Part shown: positions 41,115 to 55,315 of the stretch, piece by piece
How positions within the stretch are numbered: position 1 is the stretch's first letter
Layout of the letters: each line of letters starts with the position of its first letter
From: Cognatundibacterium oligocarboniphilum
GTDB lineage: Bacteria > Pseudomonadota > Gammaproteobacteria > Burkholderiales > Burkholderiaceae_D
Length of the DNA stretch: 64,000 bases
Direction of reading: 5' to 3'
Assembly (NCBI RefSeq): GCF_013377855.1
Contig: NZ_JABXYJ010000001.1
Location: forward strand, 124,001 to 188,000
Translations under genes and position numbers: made by a program
Notes under the pieces: generated by a model
The model's database searches: none
Told to the model about the DNA's origin: nothing
The model's input: only the letters and a program-made list of their open reading frames with translations

Positions 41115-41660
41115 ATGTCTTTACAACATGCCCTGCTGACTTCCATCGTTGAAAAACCCTGCTCCGGTTACGATCTGGCGCGGCGTTTTGATAAATCTAT
41201 CGGTTATTTCTGGCATGCCACGCATCAGCAGATCTATCGTGAACTGGCGCGCATGGAACAACAGGGCTGGGTCAGCTCCAGCGAAGTGGAAGGTGGCCGT
41301 GCGGGGAAAAAACGTTTTGATATTTTACCTGCAGGGCGGGCGGAACTACAGCGCTGGGCAGCTGAGAGCGCCGCACCAATGCGCCTGCGCGACGACATGC
41401 TGGTGCGCCTGCGCGCCGATGCCGCCGTCGGACCATTGGGTCTGACCAGAGAACTGGAACGCCGCCTGGCACTGCACGAACAAGAACTGCAAACCTACCG
41501 CGCCATCGAACAGCGCGATTTCAACCATCGACCATTGTCGCGGGAAGCGGAAATTCATTACCTGATTCTGAAAGCAGGAATCAGCTTTGAAGAAGGCCGT
41601 GTGCAATGGACCAGAGAAGCGCTGGCGATACTGCAGAAAAATTCCCCTGCCACCGCATGA
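41115..41660 (+). CDS. PadR family transcriptional regulator
   Basis: 181 residues. The N-terminal winged helix begins LQHALLTSIVEKPCSGYDLA and continues HATHQQIYRELARMEQQGWV, the PadR signature; the C-terminal helical part forms the dimer. It probably represses fadH and itself through the palindromes upstream. The ligand could be a fatty acid or enone, which is inference from fadH. Confidence 0.9.
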   Translation: MSLQHALLTSIVEKPCSGYDLARRFDKSIGYFWHATHQQIYRELARMEQQGWVSSSEVEGGRAGKKRFDILPAGRAELQRWAAESAAPMRLRDDMLVRLRADAAVGPLGLTRELERRLALHEQELQTYRAIEQRDFNHRPLSREAEIHYLILKAGISFEEGRVQWTREALAILQKNSPATA

Positions 41661-41807: not shown

Positions 41808-42356
41808 ATGGATGATTTTTCCTCCTTGTGTATGCAGGCACGCGCAGGTGATGCACATGCGGCAGAGCAGCTGATGCAGAGGATTTATCCTGAATTACGC
41901 CAGATGGCACGCTCACGCCTGCGTCACAGCGGGCATCTGACCCTGCTCGACACCACCGCATTGATCAATGAAATGTGGTTGCGCCTGAATGCCGTCACGC
42001 ACATGCAGGCTGCTGATAAACATTATTTCCTCGGTTATGCGGCGCGCGCCATGCGTTCTATCGTGATCGACTATGCACGCCGTCGCAAAGCGGAACGCCA
42101 CGGCGGCGATGCCGAACATGTGGAACTCGAATCACAGCTGGATCTGTCAAATCCGGATGAGTCTGAACTGTTGCGGGTGCACGATGCGCTGAACGAACTG
42201 GAGCAGCTCGATCCGCGTCTGGCGCAAGTGGTGGAACTGCGTTACTTTGCAGGACTGAGCGAAGAACAGACTGCCGATTTTCTCGGCGTCGCCAGACGCA
42301 CGGTACAACGCGACTGGCTCAAGGCGCGGGCATTGCTGTTTGCTGCCTTGCGCTGA
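41808..42356 (+). CDS. ECF sigma factor of the kinase-associated (ECF43-like) type
   Basis: 182-residue sigma factor with region 2 (about 15-85) and region 4 (about 125-180, QVVELRYFAGLSEEQTADFL). The region 2.2 segment reads LLDTTALINEMWLRL (about 46-60). In ordinary ECF factors this stretch has acidic residues that contact polymerase; in the ECF43 group the motif is TAL(V/I)NE and activity needs phosphorylation by a partner kinase. No anti-sigma gene is adjacent; a Ser/Thr kinase is. The Thr 49/Thr 50 pair is a candidate phosphosite, by inference. Confidence 0.88.
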   Translation: MDDFSSLCMQARAGDAHAAEQLMQRIYPELRQMARSRLRHSGHLTLLDTTALINEMWLRLNAVTHMQAADKHYFLGYAARAMRSIVIDYARRRKAERHGGDAEHVELESQLDLSNPDESELLRVHDALNELEQLDPRLAQVVELRYFAGLSEEQTADFLGVARRTVQRDWLKARALLFAALR

Positions 42357-42447
42357 ACTGCAGAAAACGATGGCATGGCGCTTTCACTCCGGATTTTTCG
42401 TTCTGCATTGAATTCCCATTGAATTTTCCTCATAACGGAGATACGCT

Positions 42448-45408
42448 GTGCAATTTTCCAGTGACGACTGGCAAACCATTTCCTATTTGCTCGATGAAGC
42501 CATCGAGCTGTCACCGGCACAACAGCAGGCCTGGCTATCAGAACTGGCTCTCACCCGGCCAACGCTGCATCCCCGGCTGTCGGAACTGCTGGCAGCACAT
42601 GTCAGCGCTGATGCACACAATTTTCTGCTGACCACACCCAAGATCACGATTGATGACAGTCAACACAACCCGAACCGGCCTGCATACCTCACAGGCATGT
42701 GTGTCGGGCCGTGGGAACTGCGCAGGGAGTTAGGTAAAGGCGGTATGGCCAGCGTCTGGCTGGCAGTCCGGAAAAATGGCGAATTCAATCGTGAAATCGC
42801 ATTAAAACTGCCTTATCCGGACACGCTCAATGGCACCATCGTATCGCGCTTTATACGTGAACGAGACATCCTGTCACAACTGACCCATCCCTACATTGCA
42901 CGGCTGTATGACGCCGGCATCAGCAGCGAACAACAGGCCTGGCTGGCACTGGAGTATGTCAAAGGTCAGCACATCATCGACTGGTGTCAACACAGACAAC
43001 TTGGCCTGCGGGCAAGATTGCAACTGATGATACAAGTCTGCTCGGCGGTGCAATATGCCCATTCGCATCTGGTCGTGCACCGTGATTTAAAGCCCAGTAA
43101 TATTCTGGTCACCGAAGAAGGCGATGTGCGCCTGCTCGATTTCGGAATTGCTCAGATTCTGCAGGGCGATCACCGTCATAGCCTCCACCACGATACAGCC
43201 AGTATGGAAGGCGGCACGCATCCCGTCACCTGGCGCTATGCCTCACCTGAACAAATCCGTGGCGAGCCGCTGGGCATTACCAGCGATGTCTATTCACTCG
43301 GGGTCGTTCTGTATGAATTACTGACCGCCACTGCACCGTATCAACCTGTTGACCGTTCGCGGGCAGCACTGGAACGGGCCATTCTGAATGAGCCGGTCGC
43401 GGCTCCGTCATCACGGCTCACGGACAAAAAACAGCATCAGGTACTGCGTGGCGATCTGGATGCCATCATACAAAAAGCGCTCAAAAAAACTCCGCCAGAG
43501 CGCTATGCCACCGTCGATGCCTTTGCCGATGACCTGAAACGCTATCTGAGCGGCGACCCGGTTCGCGCAAGACCAGGCAGTCTGTGGTACCGCAGCAGCC
43601 GCCTGCTGCGCAAGCACCGCTGGATCACTGCCGGTAGTCTGCTGTTCACCCTGTCGCTGTTCATCGCCACCGCCGTGTCGCTGCATCAGGCGCGTATCGC
43701 GCAGACTGAAACCATCAAAGCCAAAGCAATGTACCAGTTTGTCGTCAGCCTGTTCAATCCGGACCAGAAACCGGATCTCGATCTGGCGCGACGCCAGATG
43801 ACCCTGAAAGAGCTGGTCAGTCACGGCGTCGATCAGCTCATGAATGAACTGTATGAGCATCCCGACGAACGCGCCAGACTGCTGCACGACCTGGGGCAGT
43901 TGTCGGTACAACTCGGACTGCAGGAAGAAGCCGCGCGCATCTATACCGTCAGTCTGCAGCAGGCAGAGCAAAATTACGGCTCCGGCAGTAACGAATATGC
44001 GTCGGTGCTGCTGGATGCCGTCGAATGGCTGAGCGGCAATAACCGCAGCCGCGAAGCCTGTCAGTATGCTGATCAGGCACTGGCTATTTATCAGCGCAAT
44101 CAGGCAGCAGCTGAAAAACTGGCAGTCGCTTACCGCAAGGCCGGCCATTGCGGCGTCAATCTGCATCCCGCCGGCTTTCCGCGGGATATTCATTATCTGG
44201 AAATGGCGGTGCAGCTGGCACGTTCTGTCGCAGATCAGGCCGAACTCTCCACCGCACTGGAAAATCTGGGACTGGCTTATCTGAACTCAGACCGGCCCGA
44301 TGCCGCTTTGCAGACTTTCAGCGAATCTCTGACGTTGCGGCAGCGCCTGTACGGTCCGCATGCCTGGCAAACGGCAGAATCACAACAAAGCGTGGCGATC
44401 AGCCTGGACAGCCTGGGAAGAACCGGAGAGTCTGAAGCAGCACGACTGCAAGCGCTGCAAAGCATGCAGGATATCTGGGGTAAAAATCACTACTTTGTGT
44501 CGGAAAGTAAAGCCTATCTGGCAGATATGCTGGTCGATGCTGCACGCCGCCCCGAAGGTCTGGCTTACGCACGTTCCGCTTATGACATCATGCTGCTGCC
44601 GGACTGGCGCCATCAGAAACTCGATTATCTGGAAAATGCCAGCGCCAGTTATCTGAAAATCCTGATCCGCAGCGGCAGCCTGGCTGAAGCGCACAAGGTC
44701 TGCGATCAGTTTCCCTGGAAAACGCCGGTCAGTTATCCGATCCTGCGCAATATCCTGCTGAATCATTGCGGTACCGCATACCTGCATTTTGGCGATATCG
44801 ACACCGCACGCCGCTTTGCAGATGACAATCTCCGGCTCTGGCAGCAACACTGGCCAAACCAGCCCAGCCGCGCCAGCGGCATTTATCTGCTGAAGGCTGA
44901 AATTGCCCGCGCCGGGCAACATTATGCGGAAGCTATCCGGGAATACCAGCAGGCACTGTACAGCGCAGGACAAAAAAATCACTATGCCCAGACCGAAGCC
45001 TGGCTTGGGCTGGCACGGCTCGCCGGAGCAGACCAGACACTGCTGCCAGTAGAACAGATGCAAAACGAACTAAAAGCCTTTCTGCTACCCGGTCAGCGTG
45101 AATACTGGGCCGGCTTTGAAGCCAACATGCGCGAAGCACTGGGCAATGTGTATCTGGCGCGCGGTGAAATGCAGACTGCGCGAACCGAGCTGGAAACCGC
45201 ACTCGCCATCCGGGAAAAAGCCGACGATACACGCTATGGCCTGTGGTATGCGCTGACGTTGGACAGCCTCGCCCGCAGTCTGGAACCTGATGATCCGCAG
45301 CGGGCCAGGCAGCTGAGACAACGGGCCGCCGGTATCTGCCGCCAGTATCCCTCTTGCCAATGGGAGGCGATGTCTCGCCCTGCCAACCATCGCATCAAGC
45401 GCCCCTGA
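42448..45408 (+). CDS. Transmembrane Ser/Thr protein kinase with TPR-rich C-terminal part
   Basis: 986 residues from a GTG start with a CGGAGA ribosome site. Kinase domain about 90-370: Gly loop LGKGGMASVW (95-104), Lys 120, catalytic HRDLKPSN (211-218), DFG (231-233). One membrane helix at about 391-411, then about 550 residues of helical TPR-like repeats, predicted outside the inner membrane. This matches PknS-type kinases found beside ECF43 sigma factors. It lies 91 bases after the sigma gene and is its likely activator. Confidence 0.9.
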   Translation: MQFSSDDWQTISYLLDEAIELSPAQQQAWLSELALTRPTLHPRLSELLAAHVSADAHNFLLTTPKITIDDSQHNPNRPAYLTGMCVGPWELRRELGKGGMASVWLAVRKNGEFNREIALKLPYPDTLNGTIVSRFIRERDILSQLTHPYIARLYDAGISSEQQAWLALEYVKGQHIIDWCQHRQLGLRARLQLMIQVCSAVQYAHSHLVVHRDLKPSNILVTEEGDVRLLDFGIAQILQGDHRHSLHHDTASMEGGTHPVTWRYASPEQIRGEPLGITSDVYSLGVVLYELLTATAPYQPVDRSRAALERAILNEPVAAPSSRLTDKKQHQVLRGDLDAIIQKALKKTPPERYATVDAFADDLKRYLSGDPVRARPGSLWYRSSRLLRKHRWITAGSLLFTLSLFIATAVSLHQARIAQTETIKAKAMYQFVVSLFNPDQKPDLDLARRQMTLKELVSHGVDQLMNELYEHPDERARLLHDLGQLSVQLGLQEEAARIYTVSLQQAEQNYGSGSNEYASVLLDAVEWLSGNNRSREACQYADQALAIYQRNQAAAEKLAVAYRKAGHCGVNLHPAGFPRDIHYLEMAVQLARSVADQAELSTALENLGLAYLNSDRPDAALQTFSESLTLRQRLYGPHAWQTAESQQSVAISLDSLGRTGESEAARLQALQSMQDIWGKNHYFVSESKAYLADMLVDAARRPEGLAYARSAYDIMLLPDWRHQKLDYLENASASYLKILIRSGSLAEAHKVCDQFPWKTPVSYPILRNILLNHCGTAYLHFGDIDTARRFADDNLRLWQQHWPNQPSRASGIYLLKAEIARAGQHYAEAIREYQQALYSAGQKNHYAQTEAWLGLARLAGADQTLLPVEQMQNELKAFLLPGQREYWAGFEANMREALGNVYLARGEMQTARTELETALAIREKADDTRYGLWYALTLDSLARSLEPDDPQRARQLRQRAAGICRQYPSCQWEAMSRPANHRIKRP

Positions 45409-45498
45409 ATACTCTGCCACGACCTGTTTTTCCTGAACCGTCAAAAAAATAATTTTACCGGTGGCGCTTTCCCGCCTCCGATTTCGTTTGAACCGGGG

Positions 45499-45514
45499 AA
45501 GCACTCCAGTGCTT
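45499..45514. promoter_or_regulatory. Palindrome upstream of the Gly-rich lipoprotein gene
   Basis: AAGCACT-CC-AGTGCTT, perfect 7-base arms, 57 bases before the lipoprotein start. Two TGAACCG motifs occur nearby (45434-45440 and 45489-45495) and resemble the AAC core of ECF-type -35 elements. Whether this is an operator, promoter or hairpin cannot be decided by eye. Confidence 0.4.
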
Positions 45515-45570
45515 ACTGCCACAACCTGGCTGGCGGTGAAATTTCTCAATTTTACGGATAAGGATTCAGT

Positions 45571-46473
45571 ATGAAAAAACATCTTCTGGCGATCAGCCTG
45601 ATCGCTGCACTCAGCGCTTGCGGTGGTGGTGGCTCAACGACAGGCAGCACAGGAAATTCAGGGAATACGGGCACCGGCGGCACGGGTGGAACCGGCGGAA
45701 CAGGCAGCACCGGAAGCAGCTCATCCGGCATGACAGAAGCGCTGAAAGTCTTTGCAGAGAGCTGGATCAACGTACAAACCGTGTTGAATCTGCATGATCT
45801 GGTCGTCATCGCGGGTAACAGCGGTAACTGTCCAAAGGGCGGCAGCGTCAGTTTTACCGGCGCCACCACCACCGCCAATAACTGCGTGCGCCGCTTTCCG
45901 GCAGATAACGCTTATCTGGGCAGCTTCAGCGGCGCGCCGGTACAAACCGGAAGCATCAAAACCCTGAATTTTCAGAGTTCCGGCAATCTGAGCGTGAATG
46001 TCGGCAATAACCCTGCAGTGACCGAATACGTGATGAGCAACACCAGTTTCAACAGTACCGACAGCGATGGCGGCAGCAGCGAAACCACCCAGATCGGCAA
46101 CGGCAGCGCCACCTTCACCATGAGTGCCGCCACCAGTTACGGCACGACCAGTATCGGTAGCACAGTCATCAATACCGGCAGCAGCCTGACCAGCAATGCC
46201 GGATTTTTCTACAGCAAAAACAAGGCAACGGCGAACCGCGTCGTCACCACCCAGAATCTGGTCTTCACCAGCGACAGCAGCGGCATGACGAACCGTCCGG
46301 CCAGCGGCACTTACAACGTCGCCGTCGGCGGCACCACCGCCTGTGTGAATGTAGGTGTGCAGATGCTGGCAAATAACCAGGTGCAGATCAGTTGCAGTGC
46401 GACGAATGAGTCGCGCACGGCGAACTGGAGTGATGCCGATGTGAAGGCTGCGCTGAGCGCCGCCAGCAATTAA
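45571..46473 (+). CDS. Gly/Thr-rich lipoprotein of unknown function
   Basis: 300 residues. A lipoprotein signal peptide ends in LSAC (Cys 17), followed by a low-complexity linker of Gly, Ser and Thr (GTGGTGGTGGTG, about 20-52) and a beta-rich domain. Two Cys pairs (NCPKGG..NNCVRRF and ACVNVG..ISCSA) could form disulfides. I do not recognise the family. It follows the ECF sigma/kinase pair in the same direction, so it may belong to that regulon. Confidence 0.75.
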   Translation: MKKHLLAISLIAALSACGGGGSTTGSTGNSGNTGTGGTGGTGGTGSTGSSSSGMTEALKVFAESWINVQTVLNLHDLVVIAGNSGNCPKGGSVSFTGATTTANNCVRRFPADNAYLGSFSGAPVQTGSIKTLNFQSSGNLSVNVGNNPAVTEYVMSNTSFNSTDSDGGSSETTQIGNGSATFTMSAATSYGTTSIGSTVINTGSSLTSNAGFFYSKNKATANRVVTTQNLVFTSDSSGMTNRPASGTYNVAVGGTTACVNVGVQMLANNQVQISCSATNESRTANWSDADVKAALSAASN

Positions 46474-46599: not shown

Positions 46600-47421
46600 T
46601 TACCGGCTGGTTTTTTTAGGTACTGGTTTGCCGTCTCCGGCGGCTGTCTTTGTGGCGGTCTTTGCGTTTGTCTTTGCAGGCGCTTTTGCTGCGGTCTTGC
46701 GGGCGGCGCCGGCAGACGCCGGTTCAGCCGGACGGGCTGCAGTTCTGGCGGCGCCAGCCGGTTTACGGGCGGTTGTTTGGGCTGCCGGCTGATCGGTTCC
46801 GGCGGATTCCGGCTTGCTGCCAGCCATAAAGACCGGTTCATTTTCCATCGCCTTGCTGACAGCCTGCTTGAACTGATCCTGCAGCAAATTCCACCATGCA
46901 GCCGGATTGGCAAATGCGCCGCCGGTAGCTGCTTCCGGTTTCTCTGCGGAGGCGGTGCTGGCAGCAGAGGCAGACTCAGGCACCGCCTTAATGGCTTCCG
47001 GTTCAGCGGGAGAGACTTCTGGTGTTGCGGCATCTCCGGGAGCAGCCGCGCTGGCGGTCTTGCCGGTTGACGGCATCGGCCAGTCTGCGTGCTGGCTCGG
47101 TGATGGTTCCGCCGTGCTGTCCGGCGCTTTTCCGGCCTGCTGCACATGCTGGGAAAAACTCTCGCCGATCGACTGCAAAGCGGCAATGGTGGCTCGCTGG
47201 ACTTCCAGTGCCTGTATCGTACCGCGCAGCATATTCATATTCACACTCAGCCAGGATTCGACTGTTTTCAGATCCTGGATTTTTTTATCCAGTTCATCGA
47301 CCGTCATCGGTGGCGCCACCATGCCTGGCACATTCATGCTGCCCCAGAGTTTTTTGATGAACGCCAGCGGATCGCCGATGGAATTCATGCCAGGGATTTC
47401 CGTTCCGAAGGGATTACTCAT
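46600..47421 (-). CDS. phaM: PhaM-type polyhydroxyalkanoate granule regulatory protein
   Basis: 273 residues. The N-terminal part matches PhaM: DPLAFIKKLWGSMNVPGM, then TVDELDKKIQDLKTVESWLS and NMNMLRGTIQALEVQRATIA. The C-terminal third is a Lys/Ala/Pro-rich tail resembling histone H1, which in PhaM binds DNA and ties granules to the nucleoid. In Ralstonia eutropha, PhaM also activates the PHA synthase. No other pha gene is in the window. The middle is Ala/Glu/Ser-rich and probably disordered. Confidence 0.87.
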   Translation of the reverse strand: MSNPFGTEIPGMNSIGDPLAFIKKLWGSMNVPGMVAPPMTVDELDKKIQDLKTVESWLSVNMNMLRGTIQALEVQRATIAALQSIGESFSQHVQQAGKAPDSTAEPSPSQHADWPMPSTGKTASAAAPGDAATPEVSPAEPEAIKAVPESASAASTASAEKPEAATGGAFANPAAWWNLLQDQFKQAVSKAMENEPVFMAGSKPESAGTDQPAAQTTARKPAGAARTAARPAEPASAGAARKTAAKAPAKTNAKTATKTAAGDGKPVPKKTSR

Positions 47422-53142: not shown

Positions 53143-53886
53143 ATGTTGCTTGCCCTGATGACCGATCTGCACGCCAACCGGGAGGCTGTTTCAGCCTGCC
53201 TGGCACATGCGCAGCAGCAAAATGTGTCCCGCTATGTGTTTTTGGGAGACCTGATCGGTTATGGCGCCGATCCAGGCTGGGTGCTGCAGACCGTGATGGA
53301 CCATGTTACCCAGGGCAGCTGGGCGATCATGGGCAACCACGACATCGCCGTCTTGCAGGAAGACCGGCAAAACATGAATCCGGTCGCCCGCCAGGTGGTC
53401 GAATGGACGCGCGACCAGCTCAATACCGATCAGCTCGATTTCATCCGCAAGCTGCCTTACCGCATCGAATGGCAGGACCTGCTGTTTGTTCATGCCAATG
53501 CCTGGGCGCCGGACAAATGGGAATACATCGATGGCGTGATGGAAGCCATGCGCAGTATGCACGCCACCAGGGCAGCCATCACTTTTTGCGGCCATGTGCA
53601 TCTGCCGACGCTGTACCACATGACGCTGACCGGCAAAACCGGCGAATTCCTGCCGACCCCGGAAAACAGCATTCCGCTCAGTAAGCAACGACGCTGGCTG
53701 GTCATCCCCGGCTCTGCCGGTCAGCCGCGCGACGGTAATCCGGCAGCCTGCTATGCCACGTTCGACACCGAGACACAAGACCTGACCTACTTCCGTGTAC
53801 CTTACGACCATGAAGCTGCTGCAAAAAAAATTCTGGATGCCGGTCTGCCGGCAGCACTGGCATCGCGCTTACTGACAGGGAATTAG
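53143..53886 (+). CDS. Calcineurin-like metallophosphoesterase
   Basis: 247 residues with the full metal site: DLH (8-10), GDLIGYGAD (about 35-43), GNHD (64-67), a His in VHANAW and GHVH (about 151-154). Enzymes of this type hydrolyse phosphate esters, and several act as protein phosphatases. It lies one base before a Ser/Thr kinase gene, which suggests the phosphate ester is on a protein; this is inference from context. Confidence 0.88.
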   Translation: MLLALMTDLHANREAVSACLAHAQQQNVSRYVFLGDLIGYGADPGWVLQTVMDHVTQGSWAIMGNHDIAVLQEDRQNMNPVARQVVEWTRDQLNTDQLDFIRKLPYRIEWQDLLFVHANAWAPDKWEYIDGVMEAMRSMHATRAAITFCGHVHLPTLYHMTLTGKTGEFLPTPENSIPLSKQRRWLVIPGSAGQPRDGNPAACYATFDTETQDLTYFRVPYDHEAAAKKILDAGLPAALASRLLTGN

Positions 53887-53887
53887 C

Positions 53888-55315
53888 ATGAGTCCGCACA
53901 GCCTGCAAACCGGGATGGAATTCGACGGCTACCGGCTGGAAGAAAAACTGCATACCGGCGGCATGGCTGCTCTATGGCTGGTCACCGATCTGCGCCAGCG
54001 GCATATCGGCAAGCCGGGTCTGGAAAACGGCGTCCCGCCGCTGATCATGAAAGTGCCGTTGCTGTACTCAACGGACGATCCGACCGCGATCGTGGCATTT
54101 GAAGTCGAACAGATGATCATGCCCAAGCTCAAAGGACCGCATGTGCCGCGCTACTTCGGCTCCGGCGATTTCGATGCGCAACCGTATATCGTGATGGAGC
54201 AGATTGCCGGAGAATCGCTGCGCAGCCGTTTTGAGCATGCGCCGCTGCCGGTCAGCGAAGTCGTCAGTATCGGTATCAAGGTTGCCAATGCGCTGCAGGA
54301 TCTGCACCGCCAGCATGTGATTCATCTCGATATCAAACCCAGCAATATCATGTTCCGCGACGGACTGGCCGTGTTGATTGATTTCGGTCTGTCGCGCCAC
54401 GACCGCCTGCCGGATTTACTGGATGAGGAATTCCGCCTGCCGATGGGCACTGGCCCGTATATTTCGCCGGAACAAGTGCTCGGAGTGCGCAATGAGCCGC
54501 GCAGCGATCTGTTTTCGCTCGGCGTATTGCTGTACCACCTCGCCACCGGCGAACGGCCTTTCGGTCATCCGACGTCGGTCTCCGGTCTGAAAAAACGTCT
54601 GTACCGCGACCCGGTGCCGCCACGCAGTCATCGCCCCGATCTGCCGGGCTGGCTGCAGGAAATTATCCTGCGTTGTCTGGAAGTGGAACCCGCAGCACGC
54701 TTCGATACGGCGGCTCAGCTGGCGTTTTTGTTGCAGCATCCTGATCAGCTGACATTGACCGCACGGGCTGAAAAAAGCCAGCAGGACGGCTATCTGTCCG
54801 TCATCAAAAGAAGGCTGAAGGCTTCCGGAATTGAACCTGTCGCGCAGCACAGTGTGTCAGAGCAGCTGGCGAAAGCACCGATCATCGTGGCAGCGCTGGA
54901 TCTGACGCGCGGCTCAGAATCGCTGGCGGAAAATCTGCGCAACATTACCCGCCGCATGTTGCAGACCGAGCCAGGTGCACGTCTGGCATGTCTGACCATC
55001 CGCAAGGTCAGCCGCATCGGCATGGATGAAAGTCTGATCCAGCAGGGCGAAAATATTCATGTGAAACAGCTGGTGGATCTGAAACACTGGGCACGGCCAT
55101 TGAACATGAGTTCCGACAAAATCACCTTCCATGTGCTGGAGGCGTCTGATCCGGCAACGGCCATCATCGAATACGCGCATAACAACGACGTCGATCACAT
55201 CATCATCGGTTCACGCGGCACCTCGGCGCTGCGTCGCTATCTCGGGAGTGTATCGGCGCAGGTGGTGGCAGAAGCCAGCTGCACGGTCACGGTGGTCAAG
55301 AGCAGCGATAAATAA
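53888..55315 (+). CDS. Ser/Thr protein kinase fused to a universal stress protein domain
   Basis: 475 residues and no membrane helix, so cytoplasmic. Kinase domain about 14-290: Lys 55, HLDIKPSN (146-153, with Leu in place of the usual Arg), DFG (165-167), and GTGPYISPEQ in the activation segment. A UspA domain follows (about 330-475) with the ATP-type motif G-x2-G-x9-G-S at GSRG (441-444) and GS (453-454). The Leu marks it as a non-RD kinase. It is one base after the metallophosphoesterase gene. Confidence 0.9.
   Translation: MSPHSLQTGMEFDGYRLEEKLHTGGMAALWLVTDLRQRHIGKPGLENGVPPLIMKVPLLYSTDDPTAIVAFEVEQMIMPKLKGPHVPRYFGSGDFDAQPYIVMEQIAGESLRSRFEHAPLPVSEVVSIGIKVANALQDLHRQHVIHLDIKPSNIMFRDGLAVLIDFGLSRHDRLPDLLDEEFRLPMGTGPYISPEQVLGVRNEPRSDLFSLGVLLYHLATGERPFGHPTSVSGLKKRLYRDPVPPRSHRPDLPGWLQEIILRCLEVEPAARFDTAAQLAFLLQHPDQLTLTARAEKSQQDGYLSVIKRRLKASGIEPVAQHSVSEQLAKAPIIVAALDLTRGSESLAENLRNITRRMLQTEPGARLACLTIRKVSRIGMDESLIQQGENIHVKQLVDLKHWARPLNMSSDKITFHVLEASDPATAIIEYAHNNDVDHIIIGSRGTSALRRYLGSVSAQVVAEASCTVTVVKSSDK

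Follow-up and report, generated by a model that had tools for sequence, protein, structure and literature searches.

A sigma factor gene and an adjoining receptor Ser/Thr kinase gene of the window (the whole stretch of 64,000 nucleotides analysed here, G000:C1:124001-188000, from an assembly of 3.67 Mb) are a further member of the described ECF43/PknS class. Judged by their families, the region 2.2 motif, the order of the genes and the resemblance to PknS, it is highly probable that they form a phospho-switched pair. The pair is followed by a lipoprotein gene, and the whole proposal, an ECF43 switch with the lipoprotein as an accessory of the pathway, is favoured on balance. No description of the module or of its lipoprotein was found in the literature searched. 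The features of the locus, with positions given in window coordinates, are as follows.

41115-41660, plus strand: PadR-family regulator (profile match), left border of a variable slot, outside the module
41808-42356, plus strand: sigma factor of ECF43 type (TIGR02999), 182 aa, ATG start, from the ORF list and profiles
41949-41972, plus strand: region 2.2 codons for DTTALINE, residues 48-55 of the sigma factor, from the sequence and alignments
42448-45408, plus strand: PknS-like receptor Ser/Thr kinase, 986 aa, GTG start with AACGGAGAT upstream of it
Parts of the kinase: N-terminal extension, residues ~1-85; kinase domain, ~90-360; one membrane helix, ~392-415; presumed periplasmic TPR part, to 986
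45409-45570, plus strand: kinase-lipoprotein intergenic region, a probable promoter or leader of the lipoprotein gene
45571-46473, plus strand: lipoprotein, 300 aa, ATG start
46600-47421, minus strand: gene C4, without Pfam match, right border of the variable slot, outside the module

The three ORFs of the module run in one direction, all on the plus strand and at the positions given by the initial annotation, with 91 bp between sigma factor and kinase and 162 bp between kinase and lipoprotein; no terminator-like site was reported within the latter gap. The sigma gene is flanked by the PadR and kinase genes and the lipoprotein gene comes after the kinase. In a profile search the genes directly beside the sigma gene, as well as the lipoprotein, matched no anti-sigma family, bearing out the annotated absence of an adjoining anti-sigma gene.

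The sigma factor and its region 2.2 motif

The sigma factor scores 182.5 bits against TIGR02999 (cut-off 126.15) and 146.2 bits against PF07638 (cut-off 21.1), and it is assigned to ECF43 through this TIGR02999/PF07638 type rather than through an ECF43-specific profile. Homologs amounted to 2900 proteins at E up to 1e-10. The best named matches (P0011-P0013) are from Undibacterium, with other Burkholderiales further down the list; together with the named relatives of the lipoprotein they point to Undibacterium as the probable genus of the source. Region 2.2 reads D48-T49-T50-A51-L-I-N-E55, and in an alignment of the best 120 of the 2900 homologs Thr50 is found in all 120, Thr49 in 117 and Asp48 in 115, the motif DTTA being common in the subgroup (87/120). 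Two other PF07638-matching ECFs of the same genome read EAEDVVQE and DIDDAVQE at the position of DTTALINE, both with acidic residues where the window sigma factor has T50 and A51 (row L046 of this alignment with other ECFs, in the wrong frame, was left out).

Two features of ECF43 are thus present, namely a Thr at the third motif position, replacing the Glu of DAED, and an adjacent Hanks-type kinase with no anti-sigma gene adjacent. A third, the loss of all DAED acidic residues described for EcfP in PMC13147305, is absent from the window sigma factor, which keeps Asp48. Total acidic loss is no absolute criterion of ECF43, because in EcfK, too, an acidic residue next to the phospho-Thr is preserved (PMC13147305). 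Since Asp48 and Glu55 are both retained, the earlier reading of TTALINE as standing instead of the usual acidic residues was only partly right.

Either Thr49 or Thr50 had been proposed as the phosphorylation site. EcfP, which belongs to the ECF43 pair EcfP/PknT of Vibrio parahaemolyticus, resembles the window sigma factor in its two motif Thr (STTA in EcfP, DTTA here), the second of which is the phospho-site according to a review (PMC8999054); the ECF43 consensus is QTTA and the EcfK motif QATE (PMC13147305). On these motifs Thr50, and not Thr49, is the predicted phospho-acceptor, equivalent to the described phospho-site.

The receptor kinase and the predicted switch

The kinase scores 151.4 bits against PF00069 and matches PF13424 (TPR_12) in four stretches. 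Its kinase motifs are intact (GKGGMA at residue 96, ALKLPY at 118, HRDLKPSN at 211, LLDFGIA at 229 and SPEQ at 266), its hydrophobicity peaks at about residues 392-415, and the TPR part is taken as periplasmic because the membrane helix precedes it. A PDB search gave 94 different sequences with E no higher than 1e-20, the best being 9EED, which aligns with kinase residues 3-367 (E 2.1e-50). This entry is PknS, described with an 83-residue N-terminal extension and periplasmic TPRs in PMC13147305. The N-terminal extension, Hanks kinase domain, single membrane helix and TPRs of the PknS type all occur in the window protein, and the alignment, which takes in the extension, together with the gene order upholds the initial annotation of a PknS-like kinase next to the sigma gene.

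Elsewhere in the window a second kinase gene (53888-55315, plus strand) encodes a fusion of a Pkinase domain with a universal stress protein (Usp) domain at the C-terminus, and starts 1 base after a gene for a calcineurin-like phosphoesterase (53143-53886, plus strand). The whole genome has three PP2C-type phosphatase matches.

The pairing of sigma factor and kinase had been called a known kind, for which PknS/EcfK and PknT/EcfP are indeed precedents. As in the window, the EcfK/PknS system of Xanthomonas citri (ECF43; 9EED) combines adjacent genes for a sigma factor and a receptor kinase, TPRs on the outside and a Thr at the region 2.2 phospho-position; the window pair differs from it in its DTTA motif, against QATE (PMC13147305), and in being followed by a lipoprotein. 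The output of EcfK in X. citri is a T6SS, whereas the whole genome carrying the window gave no match to the sheath protein VipB; an output of the X. citri type was set aside as apparently absent, and the output probably differs.

Pairs with sigma factors of the TIGR02999 type in Burkholderiales, Steroidobacter and others were surveyed in the best 80 of at least 583 loci from a search with the sigma alignment. They share the sigma subfamily, DTTA-like motifs are common among them, and a same-strand kinase lies within 1.5 kb of the sigma gene in 62 of the 80 loci, with none such in 18; the downstream kinases mostly have 850-1100 aa.

That a phospho-switch operates in the window pair we infer from the papers on EcfK and EcfP, which are the source of the switch itself. 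In the proposed mechanism the sigma factor would have little activity before Thr50 in region 2.2 is phosphorylated by the receptor kinase encoded next to it, and the phosphate would restore negative charge at the beta-prime contact. The outer TPR part of the kinase would probably restrain or sense, a role carried over from the proposal for PknS. Under non-inducing conditions full-length PknS was unphosphorylated and truncated forms were phosphorylated, and its periplasmic part has been suggested to inhibit auto-activation (both PMC13147305).

With Asp48 retained, the unphosphorylated sigma factor may still be active to some degree. That it should be partly or fully active unphosphorylated through Asp48 and an acidic linker residue, Glu106, with the kinase acting on another target, is quite improbable: the frequency of Asp48 among the best 120 of the 2900 homologs (115/120), the occupancy of linker position 106, a possible counterpart of the linker phospho-site T106 of EcfK, in the same set (Thr in 87/120, Glu in 16/120, and Glu in the window sigma factor) and a functional EcfK T51A in X. 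citri (PMC13147305) support such activity, yet the invariance of Thr50 in these 120 homologs and the adjacency of the kinase point to phosphorylation at Thr50.

The lipoprotein and its genomic context

The lipoprotein carries a putative lipobox, LSAC (Cys17; MKKHLLAISLIAALSAC by eye), conserved in its relatives, and scores 18.1 bits against LPAM_1, under the cut-off of 20. A linker rich in Gly, Ser and Thr extends to about residue 53 and is followed by a globular part; the predicted fold consists of a long helix and a beta meander, and solved structures, the lipid-binding barrels of OSBP/ORP type among them, gave no clear match. Beyond Cys17, Cys 87, 105, 258 and 275 are invariant in a 10-row alignment, which suggests two disulfides. 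As annotated, the protein with its Gly-rich linker is unrecognised, no Pfam or NCBIfam family being over cut-off. Searches of ~5.8 billion proteins returned 9 relatives with the single sequence and 13 with a profile (7985 and 7989 candidates scored), of which the three carrying an organism name (P0001, P0003 and P0007) are all from Undibacterium. The lipoprotein is an undescribed family, with its named relatives so far in one genus. Weak matches outside the genus, in six of the 145 family genomes sampled (E 8e-6 to 1e-3), are confined to the signal and Gly-rich linker (query residues within 1-73) and were therefore rejected as homologs.

Unlike the window, the 80 sigma loci outside the genus had no homolog of the lipoprotein (tblastn, E 1e-3). 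Five of their 62 kinase-bearing loci lie too close to a contig end for the next gene to be judged, leaving 57 evaluable. With a relaxed filter an ORF with a lipobox was found within 400 bp behind the kinase in 4 of the 57, one of them (L127) doubtful, against 45 of 3000 random windows; a strict signal filter, which misses the window's own lipoprotein, gave 3/57. Given the lack of a tblastn match these ORFs cannot be recognised as homologs, and the occurrence of lipoproteins behind further kinases of the ECF43 type amounts to a faint hint. At three loci from other genera (L116, L129 and L176) a kinase that adjoins a sigma factor of the TIGR02999 type is followed after 115-202 bp by a different lipoprotein, which starts C-GGG; the sigma motif of L176 was read as DAPG.

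Within the genus, 43 Undibacterium genomes were searched, of which 35 have a completeness of 90% or more and a contamination no higher than 5%. Close orthologs of the sigma factor and full-length orthologs of the kinase stand side by side in five (G000, which carries the window, G032, G146, G147 and G157), and in all five the lipoprotein lies directly downstream of the kinase, with a gap of 73 bp in G146, G147 and G157. A full-length lipoprotein is present in eight genomes; in the other three (G063, G104 and G178) neither the sigma factor, at E 1e-5, nor the kinase, at E 1e-30, found a match. The profile also hit two short N-terminal fragments, one in G156 and one, additional to the full-length protein, in G178. 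The linkage of the lipoprotein to the pair that had been looked for in relatives is thus upheld where the pair occurs (5/5), whereas three of the eight lipoprotein genomes lack the pair and keep the gene at the same slot. Four other genomes (G132, G148, G149 and G158) contain less closely related sigma factors in the vicinity of a kinase match. These ECF43-like sigma factors (loci L049-L053) read SATA and not DTTA; the kinase match is on the opposite strand in four of these five loci.

All eight lipoproteins occupy one slot, between the PadR gene and C4 (by eye C4 is presumably PhaM-like). PadR was matched in 25 of the 43 genomes, of which 17 lack the lipoprotein; in the 16 examined (G160 was left out), PadR lies directly beside C4, with ~50-300 bp between the matches, in seven (G163, G119, G156, G173, G154, G177 and G171), other genes fill the slot in seven (G172, G152, G155, G151, G161, G175 and G168), and C4 had no match in the examined stretch of G180 and G179. 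Across the genus (L062-L068, L095-L110) the slot is hence variable, being empty or holding the lipoprotein alone, the three genes of the module or other genes, so that the association of the lipoprotein with the slot is no weaker than that with the pair. Its linkage is that of one syntenic slot in one genus and not of several independent events. In G146, G147 and G157 an additional gene lies between PadR and the sigma gene, on the strand opposite to the latter (L063:10989-11804, with equivalents in L064 and L065); the L063 copy has a weak match to a solute-binding protein family, SBP_bac_3 (27.5 bits, cut-off 26.4).

Possible roles of the lipoprotein

The 162-bp region before the lipoprotein gene is 91% identical between G000 and G032, compared with 60% for the region upstream of the sigma gene, which suggests that 45409-45570 is probably the lipoprotein's own control region in this clade. 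The lipoprotein upstream regions differ between clades. A search of the regions before the sigma and lipoprotein genes for a promoter element in common found none: their longest common word has 9 bases (shuffle mean 7.1, maximum 11), exact two-box matches are no more frequent than in shuffles and none is common to G000 and G032, and a conserved 22-mer of the intergenic region, TTTGAACCGGGGAAGCACTCCA, has a single occurrence genome-wide when up to 3 mismatches are allowed. A shared promoter was rejected, since the common word is within the range of the shuffles and the 22-mer matches only itself genome-wide, and the co-regulation of lipoprotein and sigma factor expected from the initial annotation was not shown. 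The conserved upstream region also contains TTTGAACC, which we take to resemble ECF -35 elements.

Constraint on the lipoprotein was compared by pairwise dN/dS (NG86, 100 bootstraps, coding columns only). In genomes with the pair the ratio is 0.092 (G000-G032), 0.081 (G146-G147) and 0.082 (G146-G157), against 0.198 without it (G063-G104), a contrast that involves one pair-lacking comparison and three pair-bearing ones of which two share G146. The bootstrap 5-95% intervals overlap slightly for the whole protein (0.054-0.142 for G000-G032, 0.132-0.283 for G063-G104) and for its globular part (0.052-0.171 and 0.145-0.305). The flanking genes of G063-G104 fall within the range of the three pair-bearing comparisons (in brackets): FadH 0.022 (0.012-0.023), PadR 0.081 (0.056-0.088), C4 0.214 (0.153-0.257), C0a 0.165 (0.154-0.232) and C0b 0.055 (0.048-0.167). 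In an untrimmed run that included non-coding columns PadR was also raised in G063-G104 (0.167), an effect gone with coding columns only. The contrast is consistent with a weaker constraint on the lipoprotein in the absence of the pair.

An eight-genome tree of the lipoprotein grouped G000/G032 with G146/G147/G157 (95/94), whereas the flanking-gene tree grouped them with G063/G104 (100/100; AU against two alternatives 3e-7 and 6e-6), as did FadH over 23 genomes (94/95); PadR alone gave no supported grouping (55/56). On the lipoprotein data the flank topology had an AU p of 0.051 with 8 rows, and with 12 rows added (20 in all) two topologies tied and the flank-like one stood unrejected (AU 0.062, KH 0.17). 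Because of this tie the conflict is not used as evidence, and a joint transfer of the three genes was dropped, the conflict being marginal and not strengthened by more rows.

Three genomes with the lipoprotein and without the pair, the lack of a shared promoter and a single dN/dS hint leave a link of the lipoprotein to the pair plausible. That it is a bystander, an independent gene of the PadR-C4 slot where the pair was inserted or lost with no shared function, has only slightly less than an even chance: it agrees with the pair-less copies at the same slot in three genomes, with PadR standing directly beside C4 in seven genomes and other genes in the slot in at least seven more, and with the gene's own conserved 162-bp upstream region in G000 and G032. 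Against it, the lipoprotein is present in all five genomes with a close pair, the gap is only 73 bp in three of these five, and the protein changes more slowly in genomes that have the pair. That lipoprotein and pair are functionally tied is held tentatively, at rather less than even chances.

Alternatively, the sigma factor could directly control the lipoprotein gene, which would then be a target and not a sensor partner, an output reading that we consider unlikely. The conserved upstream region with TTTGAACC would suit it, as would the missing VipB match, another output being needed if that of X. citri is apparently missing; but the region before the sigma gene yielded no equivalent element, the 22-mer has no second copy in the genome at up to 3 mismatches, the upstream regions differ between clades, and genomes that lack the pair keep the gene.

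Any role of the lipoprotein in the pathway is one that we infer. In the proposal of a switch with an accessory, it would most likely act on the envelope side, anchored by Cys17 and spaced by the flexible Gly/Ser linker, serving the TPR part as ligand or modulator, or else being an output gene. The suggestion in the initial annotation that it is a partner or target of the kinase draws on its place directly downstream in 5/5 genomes and on the dN/dS hint, and is weakened by the pair-less genomes and the lack of a shared promoter. In its most specific form, in which the lipoprotein is the envelope partner dedicated to an ECF43 receptor kinase (as a ligand, an inhibitor or a cargo-sensing subunit for the TPR part) and is under weaker constraint in lineages without the pair, the suggestion is a doubtful possibility.

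The sigma-kinase pair alone is one more member of a described class. The Discussion of the 2026 PknS paper (PMC13147305) names activation through the periplasmic region as a subject for later study. Here a candidate envelope partner is encoded next to an ECF43 kinase, and natural genomes with and without the pair offer a simple genetic test; if the candidate is such a partner, it would give the phospho-sigma pathway an assigned periplasmic input component.
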